Of a stretch of DNA of 64,000 nucleotides, positions 2,321 through 16,125 are shown piece after piece (within the stretch, counting starts at the first letter, position 1; the number at the start of each line of letters is the position of its first letter). Source of the DNA: Flavobacteriaceae bacterium (GTDB lineage: Bacteria > Bacteroidota > Bacteroidia > Flavobacteriales > Flavobacteriaceae). The notes beneath the pieces are model-generated. The model did not search any database and was not told the DNA's origin. It was given only the letters and a program-made list of their open reading frames with translations. The DNA lies in NCBI GenBank assembly GCA_029248885.1, contig JAQWIL010000017.1, positions 1 to 64,000 of the forward strand, read 5' to 3'. The position numbers and the translations under genes were made by a program.

Positions 2321-4216
2321 ATGAGCGATTCGATTAAACACGAATGTGGCATAGCACTTCTTCGGCTATTAAAACCACTGCAATATTATCAGGAAAAATA
2401 CGGCAGTTTATTTTTTGGGATTTACAAAATGTATTTAATGCTTGAGAAGCAGCACAATCGCGGGCAAGATGGTGCGGGCTTTGCGAGCATCAAATTCGAC
2501 ATGAACCCCGGAGACAGTTTTATGAGCCGTGTTCGGTCTTCTGAAAACCAACCCATTCAAGATATTTTTTCAACGATAAACAGTGAACTAAACGATGTTT
2601 TTCGAGAACTGGAAAAAAACAACTTGACCGACCTTGAAATCAAACAAGCATACCCTTATTTGGGGGAATTGATGATGGGCCATCTGCGATACGGTACATT
2701 TGGAAACAATGGAATTGGCAGTGTACACCCATTTTTGCGCCAAAACAATTGGATGCATCGAAACCTTGTGTTGGCGGGAAACTTCAATTTGACTAATGTC
2801 AACGAGCTCTTTGACAACTTGGTCACCCTTGGTCAGCACCCAAAGGTAAAAGCAGACACCGTCACGGTGATGGAAAAAATAGGGCACTTTTTAGATGACG
2901 AAGTCACCAAAGAATACAAAAAACTCAAAAAACAAGGATTTTCCAAGCAAGAAGCATCGCCAATCATTGCAGAAAACCTAAAGGTTGCAAAAATCCTGAA
3001 AAAAGCCACCAAAAATTTTGATGGGGGCTATGTGATTAGTGGGATGCTTGGGCATGGAGATGCATTTTTGATGCGTGATCCAAACGGGATCCGCCCGGCG
3101 TATTATTTTCAGAATGACGAATTTGTTGTTGCTGCATCCGAACGACCTGCGATTCAAACGGTTTTTAATGTGCCTTTTGAAGACATCAAAGAGGTTTTAC
3201 CCGGTCATTCTCTTATTATCAAAAAGAGTGGTAAAACTTCAATGAAAGAAATTTTACCACCTGGAGACCTAAAAGCATGCTCTTTTGAACGCATATATTT
3301 TTCGAGAGGAAATGATGCAGAGATTTATAATGAAAGAAAAGCATTGGGGAAATATCTTTTCCCAAAAGTGCGAAAGGCGATCGACGACGATTTTAAAAAC
3401 ACGGTGTTTTCGTACATTCCAAATACCGCAGAAACAGCTTTTTATGGACTTGTTGAGACGGTACAAGCTCATTTAAAAAAACAAGCACTAGACTCCTTAA
3501 AATTAAAAACCAACCCCACAGAGGCAGACCTAGAAAAGATACTAAACTGTAGCCCTCGAACGGAAAAAGTGATTCTGAAAGATGTAAAGCTTCGAACATT
3601 TATTACTGAGGACAGTAGCCGAGATGACTTGGTTGCCCATGTCTATGACGTTACTTATAAAACAGTAAAACCGACAGACAACCTGATTGTTATCGACGAC
3701 AGTATCGTTCGTGGGACAACACTAAAGAAAAGTATCTTAAAAATTCTCGACAGATTGTCTCCAAAAAAGATCGTGGTGGTTTCAAGCGCACCACAAATTC
3801 GATATCCAGATTGCTATGGAATCGATATGGCGCGACTCGAAGACCTCATCGCTTTTCAGGCCATGCTTGTCTTGGTGAAAGACAACGATAAAGAGGCGAT
3901 GTTGGAAACGGTCTATGAGGCGGCTAAAGCGGAAATGAAAAAACCAGACGCTGAGGCAACAAATGTTGTCAATGCATTATACGAAGCATTTTCGACAGAA
4001 CAGCTATCCAAAAAAATAGCGGAACTTGTTAAGGAAGATGGGATTCGGAGTGAAGTTGACGTGATTTTTCAAGATGTTGAGAAGCTGCACCAAGCGTGTC
4101 CTAAAAATTTGGGAGATTGGTATTTTACAGGGAATTACCCTACGCCAGGCGGCAATCGTGTTGCAAATCAGGCGTTTATCAATTTTATGGAAGGCAACAA
4201 GCAGCGTGCATATTAG
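2321..4216 (+). CDS. purF: Amidophosphoribosyltransferase family protein (PurF-like)
   Basis: A 631-residue protein with an N-terminal class II glutamine amidotransferase domain and a phosphoribosyltransferase domain. PurF makes phosphoribosylamine from PRPP and glutamine, the first purine step. Seen: Cys9 after a short propeptide (KHECGIAL), NRGQDGAGF, GHLRYGTFG, DPNGIRP and the PRPP loop VIDDSIVRGTT. It is longer than the usual 470-510 residues, with extra sequence in the PRT half and at the C terminus. Many flavobacteria carry this long form in addition to a shorter classical PurF, so it may be a paralogue with a modified role. It is followed by the duplicated repeat region. Confidence 0.8.
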   Translation: MSDSIKHECGIALLRLLKPLQYYQEKYGSLFFGIYKMYLMLEKQHNRGQDGAGFASIKFDMNPGDSFMSRVRSSENQPIQDIFSTINSELNDVFRELEKNNLTDLEIKQAYPYLGELMMGHLRYGTFGNNGIGSVHPFLRQNNWMHRNLVLAGNFNLTNVNELFDNLVTLGQHPKVKADTVTVMEKIGHFLDDEVTKEYKKLKKQGFSKQEASPIIAENLKVAKILKKATKNFDGGYVISGMLGHGDAFLMRDPNGIRPAYYFQNDEFVVAASERPAIQTVFNVPFEDIKEVLPGHSLIIKKSGKTSMKEILPPGDLKACSFERIYFSRGNDAEIYNERKALGKYLFPKVRKAIDDDFKNTVFSYIPNTAETAFYGLVETVQAHLKKQALDSLKLKTNPTEADLEKILNCSPRTEKVILKDVKLRTFITEDSSRDDLVAHVYDVTYKTVKPTDNLIVIDDSIVRGTTLKKSILKILDRLSPKKIVVVSSAPQIRYPDCYGIDMARLEDLIAFQAMLVLVKDNDKEAMLETVYEAAKAEMKKPDAEATNVVNALYEAFSTEQLSKKIAELVKEDGIRSEVDVIFQDVEKLHQACPKNLGDWYFTGNYPTPGGNRVANQAFINFMEGNKQRAY

Positions 4217-4274
4217 AAAAAAGAGAAAAAGATTTAAATTTTTTCTAGAAAAACGTTCAGGTTTCCAAAAAAGA

Positions 4275-4365
4275 TGTATTTTAGCAAAGCCATAACATAA
4301 GTAGGTTAAGTTCATGGTAAGATTTGGGGCAAAAAAGGAGGAGTCTTTCCTCCTTTTTTATTTTA
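4275..4365 (+). ncRNA. Candidate small RNA unit, copy 1 of a tandem duplication
   Basis: A 91-base unit identical to 4447-4537 apart from one base (4279/4451). It opens with a -7-like box TATTTTAG (4277-4284), continues with about 45 unstructured bases and ends in a strong hairpin (4331-4342 paired with 4348-4359, AAAAAAGGAGGA / TCCTCCTTTTTT) followed by a U-rich tail. A second hairpin with nine Ts follows at 4377-4398. The expected transcript is about 70 nt, starting near 4288. No convincing reading frame: ATG at 4314 runs straight through the terminator. The role is unknown; promoter and terminator are seen, transcription is inferred. Confidence 0.5.
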
Positions 4366-4376
4366 TATATATTTGG

Positions 4377-4398
4377 GAGCGTTTCGCTCTTTTTTTTT
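4377..4398 (+). terminator. Second intrinsic terminator after copy 1
   Basis: GAGCG-TTT-CGCTC followed by nine Ts, a rho-independent terminator reading rightward. Confidence 0.7.
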
Positions 4399-4446
4399 CG
4401 CCAACAATAAATTTTTTTCAAAAAACCTTTCGTTTAAAAAAAATAG

Positions 4447-4537
4447 TGTACTTTAGCAAAGCCATAACATAAGTAGGTTAAGTTCATGGTAAGATTTGGG
4501 GCAAAAAAGGAGGAGTCTTTCCTCCTTTTTTATTTTA
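4447..4537 (+). ncRNA. Candidate small RNA unit, copy 2 of a tandem duplication
   Basis: Second copy, 172 bases downstream of the first. The -7-like box is TACTTTAG (4449-4456). Bases 4452-4537 are identical to 4280-4365, including the GGAGGA/TCCTCC terminator hairpin at 4503-4531. The upstream 25 bases are also recognisably similar to those of copy 1 but have diverged, and the trailing second hairpin differs in sequence. Selection therefore seems to act on the 86-base core. The function is unknown. Confidence 0.5.
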
Positions 4538-4543
4538 CAAAAA

Positions 4544-4564
4544 AAAGGAGCGAAAAGCTCCTTT
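4544..4564. terminator. Bidirectional terminator between the repeat unit and sodA
   Basis: AAAGGAGC-GAAAA-GCTCCTTT with a long T run on the minus-strand side. It ends sodA from the right and also follows the second small-RNA unit. Confidence 0.75.
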
Positions 4565-4593
4565 GTTATTTTACCAACATCCGTTTGGATTAT

Positions 4594-5199
4594 TTACTTG
4601 GCTTCCTCAAAATGGTTTGCAACCACTTCCCAATCAATGACGTTAAAAAAAGCATCTATATAGTCGGGTCTGCGGTTTTGGTAGTTGAGGTAATAGGCGT
4701 GCTCCCAAACGTCAAGGCCTAGGATCGGCACCCCATCACACGCAACACCAGGCATAAGAGGGTTGTCCTGATTCGCGGTTGAGCAAACCTCTAAACGCCC
4801 ACCCTTATGAACACACAACCAAGCCCATCCGGAGCCAAATTGTGTTGCGGCAGCGGCACTAAAAGCAGTTTTAAACTCATCAAAGGAACCAAACGAATTG
4901 CGAATCGCGTCTGCTAAATCACCTGAAAGAGCCTTTGGGATGGGGCTCATCACGTTCCAAAACAGACAATGATTATAAAATCCACCACCATTGTTACGAA
5001 CAGCGCCATTGCTCATATCTAGGTTTTGAAGGATATCCTCAATAGACTGTCCTTCAAGGGGTGTGCCAGCAATAGCTGCATTGAGTTTGGCAGTATAGCC
5101 AGCGTGATGCTTGGTGTGGTGAATCTCCATGGTTCGCGCATCGATGTGCGGTTCCAAGGAGTCATACGAATATGAAAGTTGAGGAAGTTCGAAAGACAT
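4594..5199 (-). CDS. sodA: Superoxide dismutase, manganese type
   Basis: A 201-residue Fe/Mn superoxide dismutase that disproportionates superoxide to peroxide and oxygen in the cytosol. Metal-ligand regions are visible: HHTKHHAGY near residue 27, NHCLFW near 78, and LDVWEHAYY with the Asp and His ligands near 163-167. NNGGGFYNH together with STANQDNPL (Gln in the second-shell position used by Mn enzymes) points to the Mn rather than the Fe subtype; cambialistic activity is possible. There is no signal peptide. It is divergent from the AddA-like gene, with its own -7 box at 5223-5230. Confidence 0.93.
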
Positions 5200-16048: not shown

Positions 16049-16125
16049 GGTCCTATAGCTCAGTTGGTTAGAGTAGCTGACTCATAATCAGTTGGTCCCT
16101 GGTTCGAGCCCAGGTGGGACCACCA
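16049..16125 (+). tRNA. tRNA with anticodon CAU, probably tRNA-Ile2
   Basis: A complete cloverleaf: acceptor GGTCCTA/TGGGACC, anticodon arm GCTGA-CTCATAA-TCAGT, T arm CCTGG-TTCGAGC-CCAGG, discriminator A and encoded CCA. The anticodon is CAU. C4-G69 and C5-G68 in the acceptor stem fit the TilS lysidine-synthetase substrate, so Ile2 (reading AUA) is favoured over elongator Met; initiator is excluded by the paired first base. A terminator follows. The 3' end serves as anchor for several downstream degenerate copies. Confidence 0.9.

Follow-up and report, generated by a model that had tools for sequence, protein, structure and literature searches.

A multicopy small-RNA gene candidate between purF-like and sodA genes of Flavobacteriaceae, with predicted pairing to the translation start of a small protein in relatives

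Twin units between a purF-like gene and sodA

The window, that is, the entire stretch of 64,000 nucleotides of flavobacteriacean DNA analysed here, carries two tandem copies of a short unit between the gene for a PurF-like glutamine amidotransferase and the convergent superoxide dismutase gene sodA (Table 1). The PurF-like protein scores 121.6 bits against the NCBIfam purF model, which is under the cut-off of 350. A 129-nt stretch is present twice, at 4237-4365 and 4409-4537, with 88% identity and a start-to-start distance of 172 nt. Within it lies a block of 86 nt that is exactly identical in the two copies (4280-4365 = 4452-4537), in agreement with the tandem duplication reported in the preliminary description of this DNA. 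The 23-nt core CATAAGTAGGTTAAGTTCATGGT of the block is found in the window only at 4296 and 4468 when up to 3 mismatches are allowed, and at the same tolerance there were no matches in 100 dinucleotide shuffles. A BLAST search of the organism's own genome (38 contigs, 78% complete) did not find a third copy.

Table 1. Features of the twin units and of the flanking genes
Feature	Position	Strand	Basis
PurF-like glutamine amidotransferase, 631 aa, upstream neighbour	2321..4216	+	Pfam GATase_7
-7 promoter box, copy 1: TATTTTAG, TAnnTTTG type	4277..4284	+	sequence
Small RNA, copy 1, ~74 nt	4289..4362	+	predicted start at purine 4289, where the conserved block starts
5' hairpin, copy 1 (GCCAUAAC ... 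GUUCAUGGU), carrying the core CATAAGTAGGTTAAGTTCATGGT at 4296-4318	4289..4318	+	fold, conservation
Single-stranded stretch AAGATTTGGGGC, within the pairing region	4319..4330	+	unpaired in fold, conserved
Intrinsic terminator, copy 1	4331..4362	+	12-pair inverted repeat and T run
-7 promoter box, copy 2: TACTTTAG	4449..4456	+	sequence
Small RNA, copy 2, ~74 nt, identical to copy 1	4461..4534	+	repeat comparison, fold
Intrinsic terminator, copy 2	4503..4534	+	12-pair inverted repeat and T run
Fe/Mn superoxide dismutase sodA, downstream neighbour	4594..5199	-	Pfam Sod_Fe_N, Sod_Fe_C

The main promoter box of Flavobacterium psychrophilum is given as TAnnTTTG at -12 to -5 in the part of PMC9723704 available to us. 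The identical core had been said to begin with a -7-like box; such a box is indeed present at both copies, but it straddles the start of the 86-nt block, with its first three bases lying outside and differing by one letter between the copies. Neither copy was assigned a promoter by a generic sigma-70 scan, in which promoters of the Bacteroidota type are not represented. As the box spacing of F. psychrophilum was applied, transcription is predicted to start at 4289 and 4461, at a purine before CCATARC. The resulting 74-nt RNA folds with a z-score of -3.1 against shuffles, and the single strand between its 5' hairpin and the terminator may also be written AAGAUUUGGGG or AAGAUUUGGGGC. A strong terminator closes each core, and the trailing hairpins of copy 1 (4375-4391) and copy 2 (4544-4564) are not alike; both points had been noted before. 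The hairpin at 4544-4564 has T runs on both strands and is probably a two-way terminator shared with sodA.

No named family could be assigned earlier, and this holds: when the whole window was searched with the Rfam 15 covariance models, 6S and Flavo-1 included, only a tRNA at 16049-16122 reached its cut-off, and a relaxed search of 4150-4650 gave sub-threshold matches only, the top one being sraA at 31 versus 56 bits. Flavo-1 (RF01705) was considered as an identity for the RNA and rejected, being a different RNA that the search detects with 75.9 bits at L282:3193-3277 (-). L282 belongs to a genome of the genus g147 that has a five-copy array of the present RNA, with Flavo-1 lying beyond sodA.

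Conservation and genomic address of the RNA in the family

The exact 23-mer is present in 294 of 397 genomes of Flavobacteriaceae, with 1-7 copies per genome, and in 263 of the 329 family genomes that are at least 90% complete, so that the conservation in relatives on which the preliminary description had staked its proposal is borne out. The reversed 23-mer pattern, used as a control, has no match in the 397 genomes. By sampled genera the count is 183 of 237, an exact conservation over 23 nt that in our judgement is unusual for a bacterial small RNA. In other families of the order the core was absent at up to 3 mismatches from all 127 genomes (the reversed control at this tolerance gave six chance matches in the 148 genomes of the order sample), and viral contigs gave no match to the core. 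In a BLAST search of 60 relatives, most genomes of the window's own genus had homologues, as did many further genera of the family, and these frequently formed arrays. Among the matches listed were six copies in Zobellia uliginosa, five in Maribacter vaceletii and four each in Maribacter sedimenticola and Eudoraea adriatica, and the core was also among the matches listed in Winogradskyella, Aquimarina, Flavobacterium swingsii and F. aciduliphilum.

The genomic address is likewise kept, and the copies lie mostly in tandem arrays at the purF-like/sodA place, where the preliminary description had suggested looking for them in relatives. Among 109 loci, which include some genomes counted twice, a purF-like homologue lies upstream in 86 and a sodA homologue downstream in 82; at least one of them is present in 101, and both are present in 67 of the 90 loci with both flanks covered. 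Locus L042 (G017:C13) has two extra copies of the RNA 8.6 kb apart, away from the purF-like and sodA genes. In arrays of at least three copies (L028, L029, L030, L127 and similar ones) the last copy often differs: it is preceded by sequence similar to TTTCCCACAATACCAG and has U at the core's variable site, with GGGACGAAAAGGG after it.

Individual elements of the unit are conserved to different degrees. Counts over the 296 copies gathered by an exact 22-mer of the core cannot speak to those letters, which are invariant there by construction; unbiased evidence for conservation comes from 57 copies found by similarity, from the count over 397 genomes and from the order-wide mismatch search. In the 57 copies, gathered without the core pattern, the core is common to all and the terminators differ. 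Outside the window's genus, the same holds between adjacent copies within an array, whose terminators differ beside a constant core; within that genus the terminators, too, are almost identical. The predicted start is a purine in 292 of the 296 collected copies, and the place of the box is occupied by TAnnTTnG in 219 of 294, the strict TAnnTTTG accounting for 91. In each of the 213 distinct copies the 5' end forms a hairpin with 8 or more pairs and a second hairpin follows the core, with a T-rich end in 116 of the 213 by the rule of this analysis; these second hairpins comprise 208 different sequences. The alignment of the copies mis-registers the terminators. For the 5' hairpin RNAalifold gave 9 pairs, none of them changed on both sides, and the lack of visible covariation follows from a sequence that hardly varies.

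These patterns bear on two simpler readings of the locus. The element lies between convergent genes and has strong terminators at its ends, and it could accordingly be a mere termination arrangement duplicated by chance. We give this very little credence and rejected it: conservation resides in the 42 nt that precede the terminator, the terminator itself varies freely, the copies have promoter boxes of their own, and in 8 of the 109 loci neither neighbour is found in the covered flanks, some of which are short. Alternatively the unit might encode a small peptide, for which open reading frames are available at 4314-4472 and 4486-4722, starting from the ATG at 4314 or 4486 and reading MVRFGAKKEESF.... 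Many copies are one A short within this frame (GGTAGATT versus GGTAAGATT), and 103 of 296 continue with TAGATTTGGGGCAA. As the missing A shifts the frame and leaves the letters around it intact, and what remains of the frame is the variable terminator, a coding function is hardly credible and was discarded on strong evidence.

The repeated stretch is thus very probably a real small-RNA gene, each copy having a promoter box and an intrinsic terminator of its own as judged by sequence features, from which we infer its transcription. The twin small RNA proposed at the outset stands to that extent, its box, predicted start, 5' hairpin and terminator hairpin all being kept. Selection or gene conversion had been offered as the cause of the identical core. 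The conservation pattern fits selection on the core and not recent duplication alone, and gene conversion alone is the less good explanation because the core is kept while the terminators differ.

P40, its promoter and a complementary RNA

Weak core-like BLAST matches in four genera pointed to a region beside scoB, a gene for CoA-transferase B (Pfam CoA_trans); an ABC-transporter ATPase gene also adjoins this region in three of the four. In 19 of 30 scoB loci a unit with a small ORF, termed P40 here, lies downstream of scoB. In the units examined by eye, the ORF is accompanied by a leader, a -7-like box (CATATTAGC for example) and a direct repeat. The repeats beside scoB had been entertained as an RNA sponge made from the strand complementary to the small RNA; this was set aside in view of the promoter, leader and conserved small ORF found there instead. 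P40, noted downstream of scoB in loci L166-L170, L176-L218 and L230-L255, is a protein of about 40 residues (29-43 in 38 loci) with the typical end LTKKxFML, and three P40 proteins matched no Pfam or NCBIfam family at E <= 1. Its variation by codon position (0.21, 0.11 and 0.32 over the last 28 codons of 33 sequences) is as expected of a coding gene, and P40 looks coding. A shorter N-terminus (MEAQ...) is seen in a clade that includes Zobellia.

The leader of P40 carries the reverse complement of the RNA core. In L183, for example, the paired run begins at -34 and extends as far as the start codon (-48.7 kcal/mol). All 19 scoB loci with the ORF pair at the P40 start more strongly than their shuffles, with z from -3.5 to -12.3; the other 11 of the 30 have no ORF by the filter used and lie outside this comparison. 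A protein-profile search found P40 without use of the pairing, although several of its genomes overlap the scoB set, and pairing with the RNA is predicted in all 38 of the resulting loci, with energies between -25.3 and -49.0 kcal/mol; a 39th, L215, was left out as having no ORF by the filter. In 29 of the 38 the most stable duplex covers the start codon; it lies within the first codons in 8 and in the leader in 1. By the same scoring, 373 start regions of other genes in 57 families have a mean of -19.8, a standard deviation of 3.5 and a minimum of -32.1 kcal/mol; these control genes are neighbours of the arrays, many of them orthologous to each other, and like P40 they were scored with the better of two RNA variants (with one variant the minimum was -29.8). 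Below every control start lie 36 of the 38 P40 loci, and the other two (-25.3 and -29.9) are within the control range. Complementarity to the translation start of an mRNA is therefore conserved across species, the window's genus excepted, and its occurrence at the start of P40 in relatives is new here. The N-terminal codons of P40 (NLPxQPT) look constrained by the RNA pairing.

The two genes also tend to occur together. The profile search (E <= 0.001) detects P40 in 100 of 199 family genomes, namely in 98 of the 151 with the exact core and 2 of the 48 without it (Fisher p 5e-15, a value that ignores kinship beyond the choice of about one genome per genus). "Without the core" here means without the exact 23-mer, and G162, for instance, has a copy with one mismatch. 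The two P40 genomes lacking the exact core are both incomplete (G027, 84%; G086, 88%). Since 53 of the 151 core genomes have no P40 match, P40 is not the sole role of the RNA, although some P40 genes may have been missed with so short a profile. Taken together, the complementarity and the co-occurrence suggest that the RNA switches off P40 in many genomes of the family.

A divergent unit resembling the small RNA occurs in G027 at L169, oriented 1452-1535 (G027:C72), with the same stem and AGATTTGGGGC and a different, longer loop. When it was compared with the P40 of that incomplete genome, the canonical core paired better (-35.4 versus -30.0 kcal/mol), so that the divergent unit gives no compensatory evidence. 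The genus g147 (L280-L288) keeps the array between the purF-like gene and sodA with slightly changed cores, CATTAGTAGG... and TTTTAGTAGG..., and with upstream repeats that look like those of other genera. No convincing P40 was found in g147, and the changed cores consequently provide no compensatory test.

A motif for the promoters of the RNA was learnt by expectation maximization (EM) on 80 of 265 promoters, the window's genus being excluded. It reads.catTT.a.C.aatatat..g...TTt.tC. and is self-similar at lag 20. It scores above 95% of mononucleotide shuffles in 233 of the 265 RNA promoters; the P40 promoters provide an independent test, and 36 of 38 exceed the same level. Conversely, the P40-derived motif, which reads aatatGcATTTcATCGAtTTtttaTGttTTT, is above 95% of shuffles in 194 of the 265 RNA promoters. 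A similar direct repeat in both sets of promoters suggests that one regulator probably drives both. Within the P40 motif, GcATTTcATCGA resembles the half-site of the LytTR regulator YpdB of Escherichia coli, whose site is a direct repeat of GGCATTTCAT (PMC4847170, as far as available to us). LytTR sites are described in the accessible part of the same paper as two repeats of 9-11 nt, 11-13 apart; this definition implies a period of 20-24, and the direct repeat found here, like YpdB's in being direct, has a period of about 20. LytTR control of both promoter sets is a good guess from this resemblance of motifs. LytTR domains number 5-16 in nine of ten other family genomes searched, and three of four core-negative family genomes in this search have LytTR proteins. 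In the short-P40 clade, L214 and L217 have two TTCACAAC-type boxes 21 bp apart upstream of P40.

P40 is small and basic with a hydrophobic C-terminus, which makes it a candidate toxin only. The RNA and P40 might accordingly form a trans-encoded type I toxin-antitoxin system, a special case of the repression proposed here, in which P40 would be a toxic peptide acting on membranes, with the RNA array as its antitoxin. The near-absence of P40 from genomes without the exact core is what is expected of an antitoxin accompanying its toxin; the long complementarity across the P40 start codon and the last 18 residues of P40, which are hydrophobic with a mean net charge of +3.4, point the same way. We nevertheless regard this special case as unlikely. 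The RNA is wider in distribution than P40 and is unchanged in the window's genus, where P40 was not found; the hydrophobic moment of the P40 C-terminus is unexceptional, being reached by 0.07-0.25 of shuffles (six shown); and an upstream motif common to P40 and the array is unexpected for a simple toxin-antitoxin design.

A seed scan uncovered a site complementary to the core in a short RNA-like unit of two genera. This decoy-like family was then sought with 126 nt in 249 genomes, giving 25 copies in 22 genomes (L303, L306 and L307-L330), four of them in tandem in G164 (L316). Long matches in G138, G211 and G265 are outside this set, and the remaining matches cover the terminator end only. The aligned units share a conserved, promoter-like CTTGACAACT, a box, AGTCCCAAATCTTACCAAACTAAACCTAC and a terminator. 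The copies pair with the RNA (U-type) at -29.0 to -52.4 kcal/mol (z -4.3 to -10.6), while the aligned row L328 has no complementary site. As the query held the complementary stretch, the pairing is no independent test except for the first two copies, and it is the better conservation of this stretch than of its flanks, not its presence, that counts as functional evidence; it is the best-kept part of the unit. All 22 genomes carry at least three exact copies of the RNA, which shared ancestry may explain. This separate complementary RNA probably acts as a decoy in one clade. Its promoter has TTGACAAC, similar to the TTCACAAC-type boxes.

Another reading takes pairing to be secondary and the RNA to titrate an RNA-binding protein, in the manner of CsrB and RsmZ or by serving as ligand for an RRM protein (RbpB, for example). 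The core is conserved more strongly than pairing to one mRNA needs, there are several copies, and the conservation persists in genomes with no P40 match. Against this, pairing with the P40 mRNA and the decoy-like RNA involves the very letters that are conserved, and the decoy-like RNA is itself best kept in its complementary stretch; nor was a repeated motif seen within one copy of the RNA. We hold titration to be quite improbable.

The window's genus departs from the relatives in its predicted target. P40 was found in none of its 13 genomes (58-86% complete), while the core is unchanged there. In the organism of the window itself, where the RNA gene is well supported, scoB was not found in the genome, and at E <= 10 the core had no antisense match among those listed by BLAST. 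Apart from the RNA's own antisense, no exceptional pairing was seen at any of the window's 66 ORF starts, the next best reaching -27.4 kcal/mol. The promoter repeat is mostly missing too, the RNA-derived motif being present in 2 of 16 copies and the P40-derived motif in 5 of 16. LytTR domains number at most one per genome in this genus, 9 of the 13 genomes having one, and two of these nine matches contain stops. With P40 not found and the promoter repeat mostly missing, the RNA should act on another target in the window's genus; a second partner is also indicated by its survival in small genomes without P40. One genome of the genus, G003 (L292, ~1221), has a complementary site of 13 nt (-29.0 kcal/mol) that stops 4 nt short of the start codon of a predicted secreted protein; this lone site could by itself be chance. 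Seed scans of 18 and 14 genomes for further targets gave few sites outside the arrays and P40, and of 16 sites inspected most were inside or antisense to coding regions and chance-like.

Further complementary sites were noted in passing. One, in G025 (L299, ~1196), is just upstream of the start codon of a small protein that contains cysteine. In G019, which has the RNA and no P40 match, L301 and L302 (G019:C5 and C24) have a near-complement of the core in common, with a shared hairpin-like sequence behind it, and are perhaps a repeat element.

Comparable systems and a proposed circuit

Qrr small RNAs of Vibrio, several near-identical copies with an invariant core under one response regulator, resemble the RNA in copy number and core, its own LytTR driver being putative. 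They differ in being dispersed and dependent on Hfq and sigma-54, whereas the copies described here are mostly in tandem, and we know of no sequence relation between the two. The siblings NgncR_162 and NgncR_163 of Neisseria gonorrhoeae are reportedly arranged in tandem. They are a sibling pair like the twin copies, in an unrelated lineage, with a role in metabolism (PMC9973317, consulted in part). In titles and abstract openings of open-licence literature, no small RNA between purF and sodA was described in Flavobacteriaceae among the matches listed.

The nearest parallel found, in mode of action and not in layout, would be the multicopy FopS/GibS RNAs of Bacteroides, from the same phylum, which have in common with the present RNA a shared conserved segment and an intrinsic terminator. 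According to the part of PMC11697453 available to us, FopS is deposited in Rfam, has 14 members at multiple loci in B. thetaiotaomicron, targets PUL/SusC mRNAs and was shown experimentally to repress translation by pairing near the start codon, as is predicted here. As far as that description goes, FopS has a single-stranded 5' R1 seed before the terminator, its copies are at multiple loci and its targets are PUL/SusC mRNAs, whereas the present RNA has a 5' hairpin in all 213 distinct copies, lies mostly in tandem at a fixed place and pairs with the mRNA of an unnamed small protein; the copy layout sets the two apart by description. In the same family of bacteria, the conserved small RNA Rfp18 of F. 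psychrophilum, the deletion of which lowered two metalloprotease mRNAs, pairs via a third stem-loop (PMC9723704, in the part available to us). The RNA here has two predicted hairpins including the terminator, and thus differs from Rfp18 in described structure; it may yet be identical with one of the 89 listed Rfp RNAs.

The explanation that we consider likely as a whole is a multicopy, trans-acting base-pairing RNA that in relatives blocks the translation of P40. Each copy would be an independently promoted RNA of ~74 nt, consisting of the 5' hairpin, the single strand and the terminator, and would act in trans by base pairing. Its main recognisable partner in relatives would be the P40 mRNA, with pairing across the start codon or the first codons blocking translation; the negative sign of this regulation we infer from the position of the duplex. 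A single regulator of the LytTR type may drive both the RNA array and P40, a separate complementary RNA would serve as decoy in one clade, and in the window's genus the RNA would act on some other target.

More tentatively, and with rather less confidence than an even chance would warrant, these elements might be joined into a three-part circuit. In it, a LytTR regulator would drive both the small-RNA array and P40 as a membrane-active micro-protein; the small RNA, dosed by copy number, would block P40 through a duplex over its start codon and first codons; the dedicated antisense decoy of one clade would release it; and the NLPxQPT codons would be fixed by the pairing.

Flavobacteriaceae are major degraders of polymers in the sea and in fresh water, and to our knowledge little is known of RNA regulation in them. 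The RNA described here would be a family-wide small RNA that has a customary place in the genome, a single conserved target and possibly an antagonist RNA, all as predicted from sequence.
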